From the NCBI GenBank assembly GCA_945787635.1, contig CALZIK010000082.1, positions 1 to 39,450 on the forward strand: 39,450 nucleotides of DNA, read 5' to 3'. A model generated the notes under the pieces. The model searched no databases and had not been told where the DNA came from. It saw only the letters and a program-made list of their open reading frames with translations. The number at the start of each line of letters is the position of its first letter. Position 1 is the first letter of the stretch. This stretch comes from Thermoanaerobaculia bacterium. GTDB lineage: Bacteria > Acidobacteriota > Thermoanaerobaculia > Multivoradales > JAHEKO01. This document shows positions 27,860 to 38,572 of the stretch, piece after piece. Both the position numbers and the translations under genes were made by a program.

Positions 27860-28567
27860 TTGAAGGTGCTCTTGCTGCAGGTTCGCGGCCATGCCAAGGC
27901 CGAGGCGCAGGAGATTGTCTGCTTCGAGGAGGCACTGGGCGATTACGCGGAGAACCTCGATCGCCACAACCTGGTGTCCGAGCCCAGGCTCCGGTGGTCC
28001 GACCTCGATGGCGTCGATTTGCTCCTATTGGGAGGCGCCGGGGCTCATACGGTAACCCGCGAGTATGAGTTCACCCCCTACTTGAACGAGGCCCTGGAGC
28101 GCTGGATTGAAAGTGGCCGCACGTTCTTTGGCTCCTGTTACGGACACCACGTGATGGCCAAGCTCTATGGAGCTGAGGTGATCGAGGATCCCGCGACCGA
28201 GGAAGTGGGCACCTTCGAGGTGAGGCTGACCGAGGCCGGATGCAACGACCCGGTGTTTTCGGGACTTCCGGCGAGGTTTCCGGCGCAGCTAGGACACCAC
28301 GACCGCGTGGCCGGGCTGCCGGAACGGCTTCTCGAACTGGCCGACTCGAAGCGCTGCCGCAACCAGGCGCTTCGGGTCAAAGGCCGACCGGCCTACAGCA
28401 CCCAGTTCCACCCGGAGCTCTCGCTGGCTCGGATGCGCGATCGCCTGATGATGTATCGAGACGGCTACCTGGGCTCGGACGTGACCTTGAACGGCTTGCT
28501 CGAGACCCTACGACCGTCGCCGGACTCCGGCCGGCTCCTGCGGCGCTTCGTGGAAACCTATTTTTGA
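27860..28567 (+). CDS. class I glutamine amidotransferase-like protein
   Basis: This 235-residue protein has a GATase-1 fold. The nucleophile cysteine sits in FFGSCYGHHVMA and the His-Glu pair in TQFHPEL, together forming the amidotransferase triad. It resembles the stand-alone GMP-synthase-like family (such as gamma-glutamyl hydrolase-like or YfeJ/PA-type proteins) rather than a GuaA domain, since no ATP-PPase domain is fused. The amide acceptor is unknown. The start is TTG 27860, with GGGGAG 9 bases upstream; a GTG at 27866 is an alternative. Its end overlaps the convergent SARP gene by 10 bases. Confidence 0.85.
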   Translation: MKVLLLQVRGHAKAEAQEIVCFEEALGDYAENLDRHNLVSEPRLRWSDLDGVDLLLLGGAGAHTVTREYEFTPYLNEALERWIESGRTFFGSCYGHHVMAKLYGAEVIEDPATEEVGTFEVRLTEAGCNDPVFSGLPARFPAQLGHHDRVAGLPERLLELADSKRCRNQALRVKGRPAYSTQFHPELSLARMRDRLMMYRDGYLGSDVTLNGLLETLRPSPDSGRLLRRFVETYF

Positions 28568-30837
28568 GGCGGTTGCTCGCGCCTCAAGGCGACGACCTTC
28601 CGGCCCTGCTTTCCTGACCCGCCGTCGACGCAAGCCCGCGCCGCCTCGGCATCCTCCCGGTACCGGCGCGCGATCGTGATTGCCCCGGCACGCTCCGCTC
28701 TTTCGGCCGCGAGCTCGAGCCAAGGCCGTGCCGCGGCCGCCTCTCCCGCCGCCAGAAAGTGGAAAGCCAGCTCCTCGGCGACGGCTTCGGGATCGACAGC
28801 ATGATGCTTGGCCAGAGCGCGCGCGGCTTCGCCGTGCATCAGCCGCTTTCGCAGGGGGTTGATCCGATCCAGGATCGACGCCCGGATCGCGCGATGGGAG
28901 AACTCGAAGAAACCGCGGCGGGCTCCGCGTGCCCAGAGCACGATGTCCCGTTCGGGCTCCGACTGGGACCACGATCGGGGGAACTGCCGGATCAGCCAGC
29001 GTTCGAGCGAGAGCTCGACCGCCGTCTCGACCACTGCCAGATGCTCGTCGGCCGCCGCGGTGAGCACCTCCACGTCGAACTGATGTCCGAGAATCGCAGC
29101 CAGTGACATCAACCGCCGCGCCGAGTTGGGCAACCGAGAGAAGCGACGCTGGATGAGCTCCACGATATCGGCTGGAGGATTGGCGGCGGCCGGGTCGGAG
29201 CTGAGAGACCATCTTCCGGGCGAGAGCTGGACCAAAACACGCTCATCCCAGAGCAGGTTGACGAGCTCGGCGATCGCGAGCGGCAGCCCTTGACTGGCCT
29301 GCCAGAGAAAGTCGGCCAAGCCGCTGGCCGAGCTCAGGTCGACGAGCGCCTTGGCGATTTCGCGGACCTCGACCTGCTGGAGCCGTCCGACCGTGATGCT
29401 CTTGATGTTCCTATTGTTGCGAGTGCCGCCGAAATGGGTGGCCACGGCATCGATCTCTCGACCGGTGGCCAGAATCCAAATCGGCCGGCCGTCGAGGTTT
29501 TCTGCCAGGAAGCGGACGAGGTCCAGCGTCGCGGCATCCGCCCATTGAATGTCCTCGAGGAGGAAGATGACCGGGCGGGTCTCGCTCTGGGTCGGGTGTA
29601 GCACGATGTCGAGCAGCCTGAGGAACGACTCGGGGATCCGGTCGGACACCGCTCGAGAGGAATCCACCTGCAGCCCCATGGCGCTGCTGGCCACCGACAA
29701 CAGCTCGGGACAGATGAGGGATAGATCCGCCAATGCGTCCACGGTAAGCTGACTCAGACTTTCGGGCTCATCTGCCAAGAAGTCGGTGAAAACCGCTCGC
29801 ACCGCCTCGCCGACGGCTCCCAGAGGGACCAGCGGCGCCGCGGCGTACGCGCGGCCCCGGAGCACGGCGGTGTCGCGCCTCGTGCTGGCACCGTCCACGA
29901 ACGATTTGACCAGGCGGCTCTTGCCGGCGCCGCTTTCGCCGGTAACGACGGTCAGGCGGCCCTTGCCCTCGAGCACCGAGGTCCAAGTTTCCTGCAGAAG
30001 CTCGAGGTGGCTGCTGCGGCCCACCATTGGAATGATCGGTGGAGTGGTCTCTTCCGTGAGGGCGGCTTCGGTGTCACCGCCGCTGTCGAGGAGGATCGAT
30101 CGGTACAGCTGGGTGGTGGTATCGACCGGATCCACGCCCAACTCAGTTTGCAGGAGATTCAGTAGTTGCTCGTACTGAGCCAGAGCTCGGTTCCTGCGCC
30201 CGGCCAACAGGTACAGGCGCATCAGCTGCCGATGGGTTTCCTCCGAGAGCGGGTCGATCGCCAGGAGGCGCTTCGCGTACTGGATTCCGAAGCGATGTTC
30301 GCCGCGGGCCAGATAGATCTTGATCAGCATGCGGAAGGTCTGAAGAGCTTCTTCTCGAATCTGCTCTTGATGAGTGATCAGCCATTCCTCGAACTCGACG
30401 CAGTCGCGCAGGAAAAATCCGGCGAAAAGATCTCCCTTGTAGAGTCGCGCGGCCTCGGTGAGGTGGTGAGGGTCCGGGCCCCCGCTGAGGCCGTCGCGGA
30501 CTCTGCTCTGAAACTCCTCGACGTCGATTCGACAGTCGAGATCAGGGTGGAGCCTCACCCGGTCCTGCTCTGCCTCGAACGTGGTGAAGCGGTCGCCGTC
30601 GTCGCCGAGCGAATTGCGGATGCTGTAGAGGGCCTGGCGCAGGTTCCGGCGAGCCACCTCGTTCGGGCGCTCGGGCCACAGAAGGCCGGCGAGATGGTCT
30701 CGATGCACCGGCTGGTCTCGATTGAGCGCGAGGTACCCGAGCAGGGCTCGGGCCTTCTGAGATTCGAACTTCTGCACCGGCCGCGCCGTGAGCTTGGCGT
30801 CGAACCCACCGAGGAGTTGAATCTCGAGGCGACTCAT
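28558..30837 (-). CDS. SARP/BTAD-type regulator with AAA ATPase domain
   Basis: This 759-residue AfsR/MalT-like regulator has, in order, an OmpR-type winged helix (5-95) and a BTAD helical domain (about 100-250) as in SARP activators. An AAA/STAND ATPase domain follows, with Walker A G300-ESGAGKS307 and Walker B VIFLLEDIQWAD at about 425, then a helical C-terminus with TPR-like repeats (about 590-745). STAND ATPases switch with ATP binding. No LuxR HTH follows, so DNA binding is N-terminal. The divergent gap upstream holds direct repeats with one-turn spacing, suggesting autoregulation. Its end overlaps the convergent GATase gene by 10 bases. Confidence 0.92.
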   Translation of the reverse strand: MSRLEIQLLGGFDAKLTARPVQKFESQKARALLGYLALNRDQPVHRDHLAGLLWPERPNEVARRNLRQALYSIRNSLGDDGDRFTTFEAEQDRVRLHPDLDCRIDVEEFQSRVRDGLSGGPDPHHLTEAARLYKGDLFAGFFLRDCVEFEEWLITHQEQIREEALQTFRMLIKIYLARGEHRFGIQYAKRLLAIDPLSEETHRQLMRLYLLAGRRNRALAQYEQLLNLLQTELGVDPVDTTTQLYRSILLDSGGDTEAALTEETTPPIIPMVGRSSHLELLQETWTSVLEGKGRLTVVTGESGAGKSRLVKSFVDGASTRRDTAVLRGRAYAAAPLVPLGAVGEAVRAVFTDFLADEPESLSQLTVDALADLSLICPELLSVASSAMGLQVDSSRAVSDRIPESFLRLLDIVLHPTQSETRPVIFLLEDIQWADAATLDLVRFLAENLDGRPIWILATGREIDAVATHFGGTRNNRNIKSITVGRLQQVEVREIAKALVDLSSASGLADFLWQASQGLPLAIAELVNLLWDERVLVQLSPGRWSLSSDPAAANPPADIVELIQRRFSRLPNSARRLMSLAAILGHQFDVEVLTAAADEHLAVVETAVELSLERWLIRQFPRSWSQSEPERDIVLWARGARRGFFEFSHRAIRASILDRINPLRKRLMHGEAARALAKHHAVDPEAVAEELAFHFLAAGEAAAARPWLELAAERAERAGAITIARRYREDAEAARACVDGGSGKQGRKVVALRREQPPQK

Positions 30838-31414: not shown

Positions 31415-32560
31415 TTAGCGCGCACGCTCGACCAGCACGATCCCGACATCGTCCCCCTGGATTTCCCAGTCGGTAGAGTCTCGCCGGCGGTTGGGGCCGA
31501 ACGAATAGATGAACGCGATCTCTCGGCCCCGGCTGCGGGAGCATTTGTGCCGGATCCAGAGCGGGGAGTTCCAAGGGTCGATGAAGTACTGCGCCCGGGC
31601 TTCTGGGAGGCCTTGCTCCGCCAGGCTGGCGAAGCGACCTTGCGCCAGCGTGTCCAGCTGTCGGTACTTCTCAGCCCAGGAGAACACTCTCTTGTGGACG
31701 CCGCATTTCGAGATCGGCCGCCCGCGGCGGGTGAAGTCGTTGGCCAAGGCTTCGAGCTCGGTGCGAGCCGCGGCGAGGCGAGCAGGGTCCTCGCCCGCGC
31801 TGTAGTGCGAGTAGGCGAATGAAGCCATCCCGAGCAGAAACGTAGCCCCGAACCCGACCGCGATTCGACTCATTTCGCTGCGGCCTGCTGGTATCGCGAC
31901 GAGCTTCGGCGCGCAAGCGGCGAAAAGAAAGCCCAGCCCGAGCATCAGCTCGACGATCTCGCCTGAGAATCGCCACGGATAGCTTTCGTAGATCCAGTAG
32001 GTCACGGCGAATGCCGGGATGAGAGCGACGGGCGGAATCTGCGGCCCGAGTCTGCGGGCGAGCTTTCGAATCGGTTCCGCAAGCCCCAACAGTGGCAGCA
32101 CGATTCCGTACCCGAGGATCGTACCCTTGAGCGCCAGCTTGCGGATGTCGGTGCTCATGACGTTATGGATGTTCAGCTCTTGCTGAAAGTTCTCTTTCAG
32201 AAAGTACTCGGGCGGCCGGTAGCCGAGCACTCTCTGGCCCCAGGAGATCTCCTCCATCGCGACCACGAAGCAAAACAGCGCCACGCCCAGCGTCAACCAA
32301 GGGGTTCCCTGTCCGGCGCGCCGTTGCTGGCGGGCGATGAGCCAAAAGCCGACCGCGGCGAGCATGAATGCCCAGAACGTCATCCATTCCAGCGAGCCGT
32401 CTTCTTGGACCAGGACGTAGTAGAGCTCAGAATCGGTCCGCTCGATGAGACTCGCGGCCAGGGGAAAGACCAGGATCAGCAGGTTCGCCAGGATCGCGGC
32501 TACCGCCGTGAGCTGGACCGGGTTCGTCCCGGCTGGTTGAAAAGGCTTGGAGTTGCTCAT
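31415..32560 (-). CDS. polytopic membrane protein with C-terminal pseudopilin (GspG)-like domain
   Basis: This 381-residue protein starts at ATG 32560; the in-frame extension to 32680 has no hydrophobic or conserved sequence. About seven membrane helices lie at 15-290. The segment AMEEISWGQRVLGYRPPEYF sits in the second third of the membrane part and recalls a conserved EEISWGQR patch of uncharacterised bacterial membrane proteins. The C-terminal ~100 residues are soluble. They carry FIDPWNSPLWIR and IYSFGPNRRRDSTDWEIQGDDVG, which parallel the end of type II secretion major pseudopilins (DPWGNPY ... YSLGADGxxGGxxEDADI). No pseudopilin N-terminal helix is present. Divergent from the PqqD-like gene. 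Confidence 0.7.
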   Translation of the reverse strand: MSNSKPFQPAGTNPVQLTAVAAILANLLILVFPLAASLIERTDSELYYVLVQEDGSLEWMTFWAFMLAAVGFWLIARQQRRAGQGTPWLTLGVALFCFVVAMEEISWGQRVLGYRPPEYFLKENFQQELNIHNVMSTDIRKLALKGTILGYGIVLPLLGLAEPIRKLARRLGPQIPPVALIPAFAVTYWIYESYPWRFSGEIVELMLGLGFLFAACAPKLVAIPAGRSEMSRIAVGFGATFLLGMASFAYSHYSAGEDPARLAAARTELEALANDFTRRGRPISKCGVHKRVFSWAEKYRQLDTLAQGRFASLAEQGLPEARAQYFIDPWNSPLWIRHKCSRSRGREIAFIYSFGPNRRRDSTDWEIQGDDVGIVLVERAR

Positions 32561-32637: not shown

Positions 32638-32666
32638 CACCGAGTTTCGATGCGGAGTCTAACGGC

Positions 32667-32942
32667 TTGAACGTCGCCATTCCACAAGAGGTTCTGTTCA
32701 GGAAGCTCGGTCGGGAGTCGGTGTTGCTGCACCTGGAAACCGGCCAGTACTACGGACTGGACGAGGTCGGTACGATGATCTGGATTCTCCTGGTCGAGGG
32801 GACCACAGTGCCGGAGATCGAACGCAGGATACTCGAGGAATACGACGCCGACGCCGAGCAAGTGCATGGTGACGTCGACCGGATCCTGCGCGAACTGCAG
32901 AGCAAGGATCTGCTCGAGCTGAAGGGCGAGAGCGGTGGGTGA
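32667..32942 (+). CDS. PqqD-like peptide-binding protein (91 residues)
   Basis: This 91-residue product resembles the PqqD fold (RiPP recognition element): LHLETGQYYGLDEVGTMIWIL then PEIERRILEEYDADAEQVHGDVDRILRELQSKDLLE. PqqD domains bind precursor peptides for radical-SAM or other RiPP enzymes. TTG 32667 gives MNVAIPQEVLFRKLG as N-terminus; upstream in-frame sequence is not PqqD-like. No RiPP enzyme or precursor is visible nearby, so the partner is unknown. The following gene is a Crp/Fnr regulator 151 bases on. Confidence 0.75.
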   Translation: MNVAIPQEVLFRKLGRESVLLHLETGQYYGLDEVGTMIWILLVEGTTVPEIERRILEEYDADAEQVHGDVDRILRELQSKDLLELKGESGG

Positions 32943-36661: not shown

Positions 36662-38572
36662 TTGCTCCGTATCCGTCAGCTACGCGTCTTGCATATTTTT
36701 CTGTGCAATGCGGTGCTCGCCCTTTCCCTTGGGGAGGCGTCGCCCGTTCCAGCGGCCGAGGTTCAGGAGCCTTGGACCGGCGAGCCGGACGTGCTCGCTC
36801 TCGAAGACGTCACCAAAGGCCAGCAAGGGTACGGGTTGAGTGTCTTTTCAGGAGCTTCGGTCGAGAGGTTCGAGGTCGAGGTGTTGGGAGTGTGGCAAAA
36901 CCTCCAGCCAAGCACCAGCTACGTTCTGGCTCGGCTGTCGGGGCAGGGGCTCGAGACCAGCGGAGTGATCGCGGGCATGAGCGGGAGCCCGGTCTACATT
37001 GATGGCAAACTGTTGGGAGCAGTCTCTTTTGGTTGGCCGTTTTCTAACGAGGCGATCGCGGGTATCACCCCGGCGGGCGCGATGCGAGACATGCTGGACC
37101 GACCTCGTGATCGAATGGCGACGGCCGCGACGGGAGTCGCGGGCGACCCCTGGAGCGTCGAGCGCCTCCTGCGTCGGGAGGTCGATGAGACCGATCTTCG
37201 TCGAAGCCTGGCCGCTCTAAGACCGGCCCGAATCGGCGAGGCGTCCGCTGCGGTCGAATGGGCGAGCGTCGGCTTCGGCCCGGCGGCGCGCGGTCTTCTC
37301 GAAGAGGCGGTCGGTTCGGTGGCTTCGGCCGGTACCCTGGGGAAGGCGGAGGCGGAGCGCTCGGCGACACTCGAGCCCGGGAGCGCAGTAGCCGCCGTGC
37401 TGGTGGACGGGGACTTTCGGCTGGCGGCCACCGGCACCGTGTCCGACAGGTCGAGCGACACCATTTTGGCTTTCGGCCACCCTTTTCTTGGACTCGGCAC
37501 GGTCGAGATACCCATGGCGTCCGCCGAGATCCTCACCGTCGTGTCAAGCCAGTGGAACTCGTTCAAGGTCGCCAATCTCGGCCCCATCGTGGGCGCGGTG
37601 GACTTCGACTATCTGACCGGGATTCGCGGCTCGATCGGCAAGGTGGCGCCGACGATTCCCATGACCGTGCGCCTCGACGGAGAGACCGAGCGCCCGGTAC
37701 GGCTTTCATTGGCGAAGATCCCGACGTTGACGCCGGCGTTGGCAGCCATCTCGGTCCTCGGGTCGATCAACGCGGCGACCGAATCGGCCGGTGCTCAGAG
37801 CATCGACTTGAAGTTGCGTTTCGACCTGGGCTCCGATGGCGCGCTGGCGATCGATCAGAGTTTCGACGGCCCGGGATCCGCGTTGGCCGCGGCCATTCAC
37901 CTGTTCAGCATGACCAGCTACCTGCTGCGCAACAGCCTCGCCGAAGTCGACATTCGGGAGATTGAGGTGGACATAGTGAGTCACCCCCAGCCGCGCACCC
38001 TCACCCTGGTCGGTGCGCACCCCTCGCGAACCGTGGTCCGGCCCGGAGAGACTCTGCGCCTGAATGTGGACCTCGCCGGATACCGCGACGGCAAGCAGAA
38101 ACGCCCGATCAAGCTGCAGGTCCCCTCCAATCTCGCCGCCGGTCGCTACATGCTCCTCGTCGGTGACGGTCAGAGCGCCGACGCCGTGCGCTTGACGATC
38201 GAGCAGCTCGAGCCCAAGACGTTTCGGCAGGCGCTGGATTTTCTCAACACGCTGCATTCGACGCGCGAGCTGAGGGTGCTCGGGATCGTTCAGGGGCCGG
38301 GCCTCTCGGTTGCCGGCGAGGTGCTCCCGGACCTGCCCGGTTCGGTCCGGTCCCTCTGGTCGGCGTCCGGGTCGGGAGGAGCGAAGCCGCTCGCGATGAC
38401 GGTCGCCGAGGATGCCGGTATCTGGCTCGAAGCTCCCGTCGAGGGGTTGCTCAGGGTCGACCTCGAAGTTGAAAGAGGAGAACCGGTAGGTGCCGAGGCC
38501 GAAACCGAGCCGGCGCCGCCGACATCGAGTGAAAGCTCGAACAACACCGCCGGCTCCGGAGGCGATGGATGA
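36662..38572 (+). CDS. secreted SpoIVB-like (S55) peptidase-domain protein
   Basis: This 636-residue protein has a signal peptide (hydrophobic 8-24). Its peptidase-like part holds the SpoIVB-type GMSGSP elbow (S107, GMSGSPVYIDGKLLGAVSFGW) and a GHPF motif with H273 (ILAFGHPFLGLG). A long beta-rich second half ends in an acidic Ser/Pro tail. In B. subtilis SpoIVB the GH motif precedes GMSGSP; here it follows, so catalytic residue order differs or a different His is used. TTG start directly follows the Sua5 stop. The next gene, a beta-propeller protein, overlaps by ATGA. Confidence 0.82.
   Translation: MLRIRQLRVLHIFLCNAVLALSLGEASPVPAAEVQEPWTGEPDVLALEDVTKGQQGYGLSVFSGASVERFEVEVLGVWQNLQPSTSYVLARLSGQGLETSGVIAGMSGSPVYIDGKLLGAVSFGWPFSNEAIAGITPAGAMRDMLDRPRDRMATAATGVAGDPWSVERLLRREVDETDLRRSLAALRPARIGEASAAVEWASVGFGPAARGLLEEAVGSVASAGTLGKAEAERSATLEPGSAVAAVLVDGDFRLAATGTVSDRSSDTILAFGHPFLGLGTVEIPMASAEILTVVSSQWNSFKVANLGPIVGAVDFDYLTGIRGSIGKVAPTIPMTVRLDGETERPVRLSLAKIPTLTPALAAISVLGSINAATESAGAQSIDLKLRFDLGSDGALAIDQSFDGPGSALAAAIHLFSMTSYLLRNSLAEVDIREIEVDIVSHPQPRTLTLVGAHPSRTVVRPGETLRLNVDLAGYRDGKQKRPIKLQVPSNLAAGRYMLLVGDGQSADAVRLTIEQLEPKTFRQALDFLNTLHSTRELRVLGIVQGPGLSVAGEVLPDLPGSVRSLWSASGSGGAKPLAMTVAEDAGIWLEAPVEGLLRVDLEVERGEPVGAEAETEPAPPTSSESSNNTAGSGGDG

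Follow-up and report, generated by a model that had tools for sequence, protein, structure and literature searches.

The window analysed here is the whole of a 39,450-nucleotide stretch of contig CALZIK010000082.1 (assembly GCA_945787635.1, positions 1 to 39,450, forward strand) from a Thermoanaerobaculia bacterium of the phylum Acidobacteriota. On its minus strand lies an intact open reading frame (ORF) that runs from an ATG at 32560 to a stop codon at 31415-31417 and encodes 381 amino acids. The protein joins a six-helix membrane core, which bears the motif EEISWGQR, to a seventh transmembrane helix (TM7) and a C-terminal domain that very probably has the fold of GspG, the major pseudopilin of type II secretion. 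Its parts are:

31415..32560, minus strand: whole gene, 381 residues, with six-helix EEISWGQR core, TM7 and GspG-like, probably periplasmic domain
31886..32560, minus strand: core of six transmembrane helices, residues 1-225
32231..32254, minus strand: EEISWGQR motif, residues 103-110
31802..31882, minus strand: TM7, residues 227-253
31418..31801, minus strand: pseudopilin-like domain, residues 254-381, with helix 259-278, short helices and a three-stranded sheet
31553..31579, minus strand: DPWNSPLWI, residues 328-336, counterpart of GspG DPWGNPY
31448..31507, minus strand: YSFGPNRRRDSTDWEIQGDD, residues 352-371, counterpart of the GspG calcium loop

A longer alternative start at 32680 would give 421 residues; homologues agree with the start at 32560. 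The genome (4.36 Mb) is 97.7% complete, and both other genomes of the genus encode full-length homologues with 69% identity. Within a set of 98 genomes that includes the protein's own, 20 have a match at E <= 0.001, and 14 full-length proteins, again counting the window's, could be aligned. Measured against the two same-genus homologues, the ratio of nonsynonymous to synonymous substitution rates (dN/dS) is ~0.15-0.2 for the whole protein (0.235/1.27 and 0.241/1.63) and ~0.14-0.16 for the C-terminal domain (0.205/1.44 and 0.217/1.33). The low values in both protein and domain indicate purifying selection across the entire reading frame, and the ORF is a real gene. A preliminary description of the locus, made from the letters alone, had quoted the strings FIDPWNSPLWIR, YSFGPNRRRDST, GDDVG and EEISWGQR, all of which are present in the ORF, and had counted about seven membrane helices. 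The AlphaFold2 model of the whole protein (predicted local distance difference test, pLDDT, 89.6; predicted template modelling score, pTM, 0.88) agrees with that count, with long helices at residues 19-42, 56-81, 88-105, 137-158, 178-193, 199-215 and 227-253. After TM7 it places helix 259-278 and then a sheet of three strands, 335-341, 346-353 and 372-380.

Relatives were gathered by scanning a genome collection with the patterns EEISW[GA]QR and [FY][VIL]YSFGPNR. This gave 568 confirmed relatives, and the sample of relatives consists of the best 80 of these 568 loci, among which the close relatives of the protein come from metagenome-assembled genomes (MAGs) of Acidobacteriota/Thermoanaerobaculia, and from others. 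A DPW...YS(F/L)G tail was found by regular expression in 44 of the 80. The alignments of pilin-like proteins hold 43 sequences, the window protein and 42 others; they omit two 5'-open or partial ORFs (L037 and L066), and one locus cut by a contig end (L058) and one whose ORF stops before the domain (L071) belong neither to these 43 nor to the comparison set of 34 non-pilin relatives.

Aligned by hhalign with 22 GspG proteins from the same phylum, the tails gave P = 1.1e-7 over 111 columns and, without TM7, P = 4.9e-6; the match covers the helix and the sheet in order. In each of the two comparisons, 150 shuffles of the GspG columns all scored worse than the real profile (best shuffle P of 0.0012 with TM7 and 0.0011 without), reversed GspG gave P of 0.14 and 0.12, and the membrane part compared with GspG gave P = 0.071. 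When the 43 tails were scanned with 24,736 Pfam models, T2SSG came top by member count, matching 12 of 43 at E <= 1 (best E 0.0014), with a runner-up that matched only two. A model of the tail alone (AlphaFold2, pLDDT 94.0, pTM 0.84) was re-aligned with VIA, and every one of the best 13 places went to a pseudopilin or a type IV pilin. GspG took the first six of them (3g20, 3gn9, 4lw9, 3fu1, 5o2y and 9a1f; Z 6.3-5.2 over 85-91 residues), E. coli first, followed by V. vulnificus, V. cholerae (two), Klebsiella and an Xcp filament model. The top entry, E. coli GspG 3g20, aligned at Z 6.3 and 2.9 Å over 85 residues; below GspG came seven type IV pilins at Z 4.7-3.7, and the first non-pilin scored Z 3.0. 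Sequence identity to GspG in the structural alignments is 15-19%. With the whole protein as query, VIA placed GspG 4lw9 on residues 256-375 (Z 5.8), the only row aligning to the tail among the matches listed. The 7TM receptor and rhodopsin rows in that search (Z <= 6.5) were taken as generic helix bundles and set aside.

Some results tell against this assignment. Foldseek alone, run with both models against the PDB, returned no match at E <= 0.001, its best rows being non-pilin, and by VIA's own guidance a Z value under 8 counts as modest. Neither Pfam nor NCBIfam gives a match of useful score for the window protein, with only weak lines to DUF423/MerC (E 0.046/0.27), and its C-terminal 121 residues have no match among PDB sequences. 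Its own tail drew no T2SSG match in the Pfam tail scan, and the protein does not pass the PF08334 cut-off. The structural case, plain Foldseek being negative, rests on the VIA re-alignment together with the profile tests; a comparison of structure and profile with GspG, which the preliminary description had suggested, recovers the pseudopilin fold through VIA and hhalign and falls short of significance with Foldseek alone. The outcome that would have refuted that description, a C-terminal region lacking a pseudopilin fold, did not arise. Taken together, the profile, shuffle, VIA and Pfam results point to GspG and bear out the earlier claim that a polytopic membrane protein here ends in a pseudopilin-like domain: the C-terminal ~125 residues very probably fold like GspG.

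The likeness to GspG (also known as PulG or XcpT; PF08334; 3g20, 3gn9, 4lw9, 5o2y) extends from the succession of helix, short helices and three-stranded sheet to a DPW-x-x-PY turn, a YSxGP(N/D) turn, an Asp-Asp pair in the C-terminal loop and a probable location on the periplasmic side. D328, P329 and W335 are found in 43/43 pilin-like proteins, partly owing to the regular expression that selected them. The preliminary description reported no pilin N-helix. This holds insofar as neither a prepilin signal nor a GFTLxE-type N-terminal motif was found by regular expression in any of the 43, and the protein starts with its six-helix core. It does not hold for the helix as such: where a pilin has the globular half of its N-helix, this protein has helix 259-278, with model residue 257 aligned to residue 28 of GspG, and ahead of it comes helix 227-253, in the position of the transmembrane half. 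The window protein differs from GspG in having no prepilin leader or N-methylation motif, in carrying the domain behind six extra transmembrane helices, in a longer loop whose first ligand is mostly Asn, and in having no secretion operon. A domain placed behind seven membrane helices should be neither cut by prepilin peptidase nor able to join a filament. The protein is not a pseudopilin: it has no prepilin signal and no secretion operon, its own genome has no detectable GspG, and a Lutibacter genome carries it with no detectable GspG, GspF or pilin.

The loop that the preliminary description had called a calcium loop keeps one element of its GspG counterpart and alters others. The Asp-Asp pair D370/D371 is present in 43/43 pilin-like proteins. 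At residue 357, the first-ligand position, 38 have Asn and five have Asp. The loop is longer than in GspG; the stretch from this position to the Asp pair measures 12 residues in 33 of the 43 and is longer in the others. In 3g20 the main chain of P114 and V119 coordinates the ion together with D117, T122 and D125 (PMC3396595), and it is the position of D117 that is taken by Asn or Asp here. The motif given in the same paper, G-x-D-G-x-x-[GN]-[TN]-x-D-D, occurs in none of the 43; only 9 of the 22 GspG comparison proteins have it, so the strict motif is not universal even among GspG. In the model, D371 would superpose on GspG D125 if the last residues are aligned without gaps (tail-model residue 140 with 3g20 residue 129). 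A cation site in the loop is plausible from these residues.

The core belongs to an unnamed EEISWGQR family of six-helix membrane proteins, whose invariant set it satisfies. Thirteen positions are invariant in 77/77 relatives (E53, E58, E103, E104, S106, W107, Q109, R110, Q126, E128, H132, N133 and E204), and E201 and D54 are kept in 76/77 and 75/77 cores. EEISW and QR were part of the search pattern, which makes their invariance partly a matter of construction; E53, E58, Q126, E128, H132, N133, E201 and E204 lie outside it. The invariant acids and the His map to the predicted outer ends of helices 2, 3 and 6 and to the loop that joins helices 3 and 4. Presumed inside segments (N-terminus, L2, L4 and L6) carry 1.6, 2.2, 3.1 and 2.4 Lys+Arg per sequence versus 0.9, 0.6, 0.7 and 1.3 Asp+Glu, and outside loops L1 and L3 carry 0.7 versus 3.6 and 2.0 versus 2.7. 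These charges obey the positive-inside rule with the N-terminus inside and the C-terminus outside, an orientation that would bring the invariant acids and His to the periplasmic side, where the pilin-like domain would also lie. We are fairly confident that the pilin-like tail is fixed on that side. Neither Pfam nor NCBIfam has a fitting name for the core, and NCBIfam searches of ten relatives gave TPR-type or weak lines only.

The core family occurs in three forms: alone, with a TPR tail and with a pilin-like tail. Standalone cores stop after helix 6, with no hydrophobic stretch past +115 in 8/8, one of which (L101) is cut by a contig end. A transmembrane helix stands at the place of TM7 in 25/26 long-tailed non-pilin relatives, and as many as 19 of the 34 non-pilin relatives have a match to one and the same TPR family. 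A hydropathy cut-off finds TM7 in 36/43 pilin-like proteins, a simple measure that misses the window's own TM7, which the model shows. A quick tree built from 77 cores puts the whole pilin-like class on one side of a branch (Shimodaira-Hasegawa-like approximate likelihood ratio test, 87), and the combination of core and pilin-like tail takes one change, compared with a mean of 25.5 after shuffling; trust in the tree is limited by the quick method and by long branches. The combination needs a single origin among the 77 sampled relatives. Judged by record titles, the pilin-like class spans eight phyla: Acidobacteriota, Myxococcota, Pseudomonadota, Bacteroidota, Verrucomicrobiota, Nitrospirota, Elusimicrobiota and Candidatus Binatota. 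In two Chloroflexota loci (L083 and L089), an EEISWGQR core opens an 840-residue protein with many further transmembrane helices, and an ORF of similar size in both (673-675 residues) follows the core gene.

We favour, with some reserve, the reading that this is a two-module inner-membrane protein a membrane enzyme or receptor that uses a captured pseudopilin, fixed in the periplasm, for binding. In this captured domain a divalent cation at Asp370, Asp371 and Asn357 probably still stabilises the fold. The tail would bind a partner or substrate for an active or ligand site at the membrane surface of the core, and in the sister classes that role would fall to the TPR tails. More tentatively, the family could record an ancient domestication, in which an entire major-pseudopilin fold, membrane helix included, was turned into a permanent periplasmic domain of a previously undescribed, periplasm-facing enzyme family (with a Glu/His cluster, possibly a metal site) that is filament-free in many phyla; we regard this broader proposal as somewhat doubtful. 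Pilins and pseudopilins are usually seen as filament parts, made as prepilins with one N-terminal helix and later polymerised. One apparently old fusion kept under purifying selection makes the fold traceable outside secretion. It also brings to light a family of membrane proteins not described before, in which the acidic/His set is strongly conserved and the periplasmic tail can be exchanged, so that the function of the core becomes testable by comparing the tail classes. For annotation, a DPW...YSxGP...DD tail need not imply a type II secretion system.

Weighing against this reading are the comparisons of the core with known membrane enzymes and the occasional company of pilin genes. By hhalign, in small comparison sets, the core showed no profile similarity to two kinds of membrane hydrolase: it gave P = 0.4 with CPBP/Rce1 (PF02517), where the minimum of 40 shuffles was 0.2 and only 18 relatives' sequences were used, and P = 0.64 with the ceramidase-like PF05875, against four sequences only. 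The main alternative, which we consider unlikely, is a filament-linked factor that, from the inner membrane, would use its tethered domain to dock on, prime or cap a type IV pilus or type II pseudopilus, much as the preliminary description had offered a pseudopilus assembly factor. It would share with GspG the fold and probably the membrane orientation. A prepilin-type ORF lies within 2.5 kb of the gene (by regular expression) in 2/42 pilin-like loci, the myxobacterial L051 and L052, where a pilin gene is upstream of the pilin-like protein. TPR-tailed cores adjoin pilin genes in three Methylococcaceae-type loci (L093, L097 and L102), and a TadG-like ORF, identified by reading the sequence, is near a TPR-tailed gene in three Phycisphaerae/Planctomycetota loci. 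Over 76 loci, seven pilin genes lie within 2.5 kb (0.020/kb) and four farther away (0.008/kb), too few to call. Neighbours were compared at 34 of the 42 pilin-like loci, the other eight having no target in the greedy ORF set; the commonest neighbour family occurs at five of the 34, and no secretion or pilus neighbour recurs beyond the L051/L052 pair, whose pilin-like ORF (by reading) is the sole filament gene among the recurrent families. Genome searches were made in 40 carriers. They find PF00482 (GspF/PilC/Tad) in 39, as in most bacteria (13/14 control genomes too), and PF08334 (GspG) in 26. PF08334 has no match in the window's own genome and was not found in 10/14 carriers of the same order. 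A Lutibacter MAG that carries the protein (L049, G245) has no PF08334, PF00482 or PF07963 match, on a contig whose other genes look Bacteroidota (a TonB receptor with CarbopepD_reg_2, and DUF5689), and an alphaproteobacterial MAG (L042) has no PF08334 or PF07963 match and two PF00482 matches. Gaps in MAGs remain a possible cause of missing filament genes. The PF08334 and PF00482 searches omit the genome of L059 and the carriers L026-L030, L033, L036-L038, L043, L045, L055, L056, L060 and L065-L067, several of which are the same records as searched ones. The window's genome, with five PF07963 matches (type IV pilin N-termini) and five PF00482 matches, probably makes type IV pili. The missing shared operon, the absence of a GspG match from the protein's own and most same-order genomes, and the Lutibacter genome with none of the three filament families disfavour the assembly-factor idea, and a role independent of filaments is likely.

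We think it similarly improbable that the protein is a calcium or surface sensor, in which cation binding or contact at the pilin-like loop would switch the state of the membrane core. The Asp pair and the Asn or Asp at the first ligand position in 43/43 proteins speak for a sensor, and the lengthened loop without the published motif speaks against one, as do the lack of a cytoplasmic signalling domain and of a recurrent regulator neighbour. The ion in GspG is required for folding (PMC6692295), so that a site need not mean sensing. Convergence, by which a tail made up of a beta-hairpin, a DPW turn and a loop rich in Asp arose unrelated to pilins, would account for the negative Foldseek search and the low identity to GspG; it is very improbable given a profile match through helix and sheet in order that no shuffle approaches (P of at least 1e-3), a structural ranking with pilins in all 13 top places, and the independent choice of T2SSG by Pfam.

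Reuse of the pilin fold has precedents, and in what could be reached of the literature, with subscription journals thinly covered, we found no description of a whole pseudopilin fold behind a polytopic core. Nor did a literature search of the same coverage return a paper with the strings EEISWGQ, EEISWAQ or EEISWG. CpaL of Caulobacter Tad pili has a pilin-like domain joined to a vWA domain and is predicted to enter the pilus tip (PMC12607857). It resembles the window protein in joining a pilin-like domain to a large extra domain; its pilin module is N-terminal, whereas that of the window protein is C-terminal behind seven transmembrane helices. The TPR-tailed and standalone EEISWGQR proteins have the same six-helix core and invariant residues with another periplasmic tail or none. 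GspG-like half-domains, with T2SSG above the Pfam cut-off outside a pilin, also occur in three non-pilin ORFs (L161, L148 and L150), which differ from the window protein in that none has the EEISWGQR core. At L161:1-3126 (plus strand) an alpha-2-macroglobulin-family protein has a T2SSG-like stretch at residues 504-542 (E 6.5e-6), at L148 the half-domain is in a lipoprotein-like ORF, and at L150:1670-3682 (minus strand) an oligopeptide ABC ATPase is followed in one open frame by a transmembrane helix and a T2SSG-like tail, an arrangement that could reflect either genuine fusion or two genes within a shared frame.

In the Methylococcaceae-type loci mentioned above (L093, L097 and L102), type IV pilin genes flank or adjoin the TPR-tailed gene, a FimT-like one upstream and a PilE-like one downstream (by reading).

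In the window, no type II secretion genes lie beside the gene; it is surrounded by genes for a BTAD regulator, PqqD, CRP and others. Among ten relatives' regions these neighbours recur solely in the two of the same genus, and a function based on the operon was set aside for lack of conserved neighbours. An Rfam search of the window gave no match. Downstream of the gene, at 28558-30837 (minus strand), is a 759-residue BTAD/AAA regulator with Trans_reg_C, syntenic in both same-genus genomes. A PqqD-family ORF (E 8.7e-19) at 32643-32942 (plus strand) is divergent from the gene and conserved beside it within the genus only; no other gene for pyrroloquinoline quinone (PQQ) or for ribosomally synthesised and post-translationally modified peptides (RiPPs) was noticed beside it. 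Farther along, at 36662-38572 (plus strand), a 636-residue protein that matches the SpoIVB-type peptidase S55 (E 1.4e-7) adjoins RecN- and Sua5-like ORFs (by reading), in a host that is presumably a non-sporulating acidobacterium.
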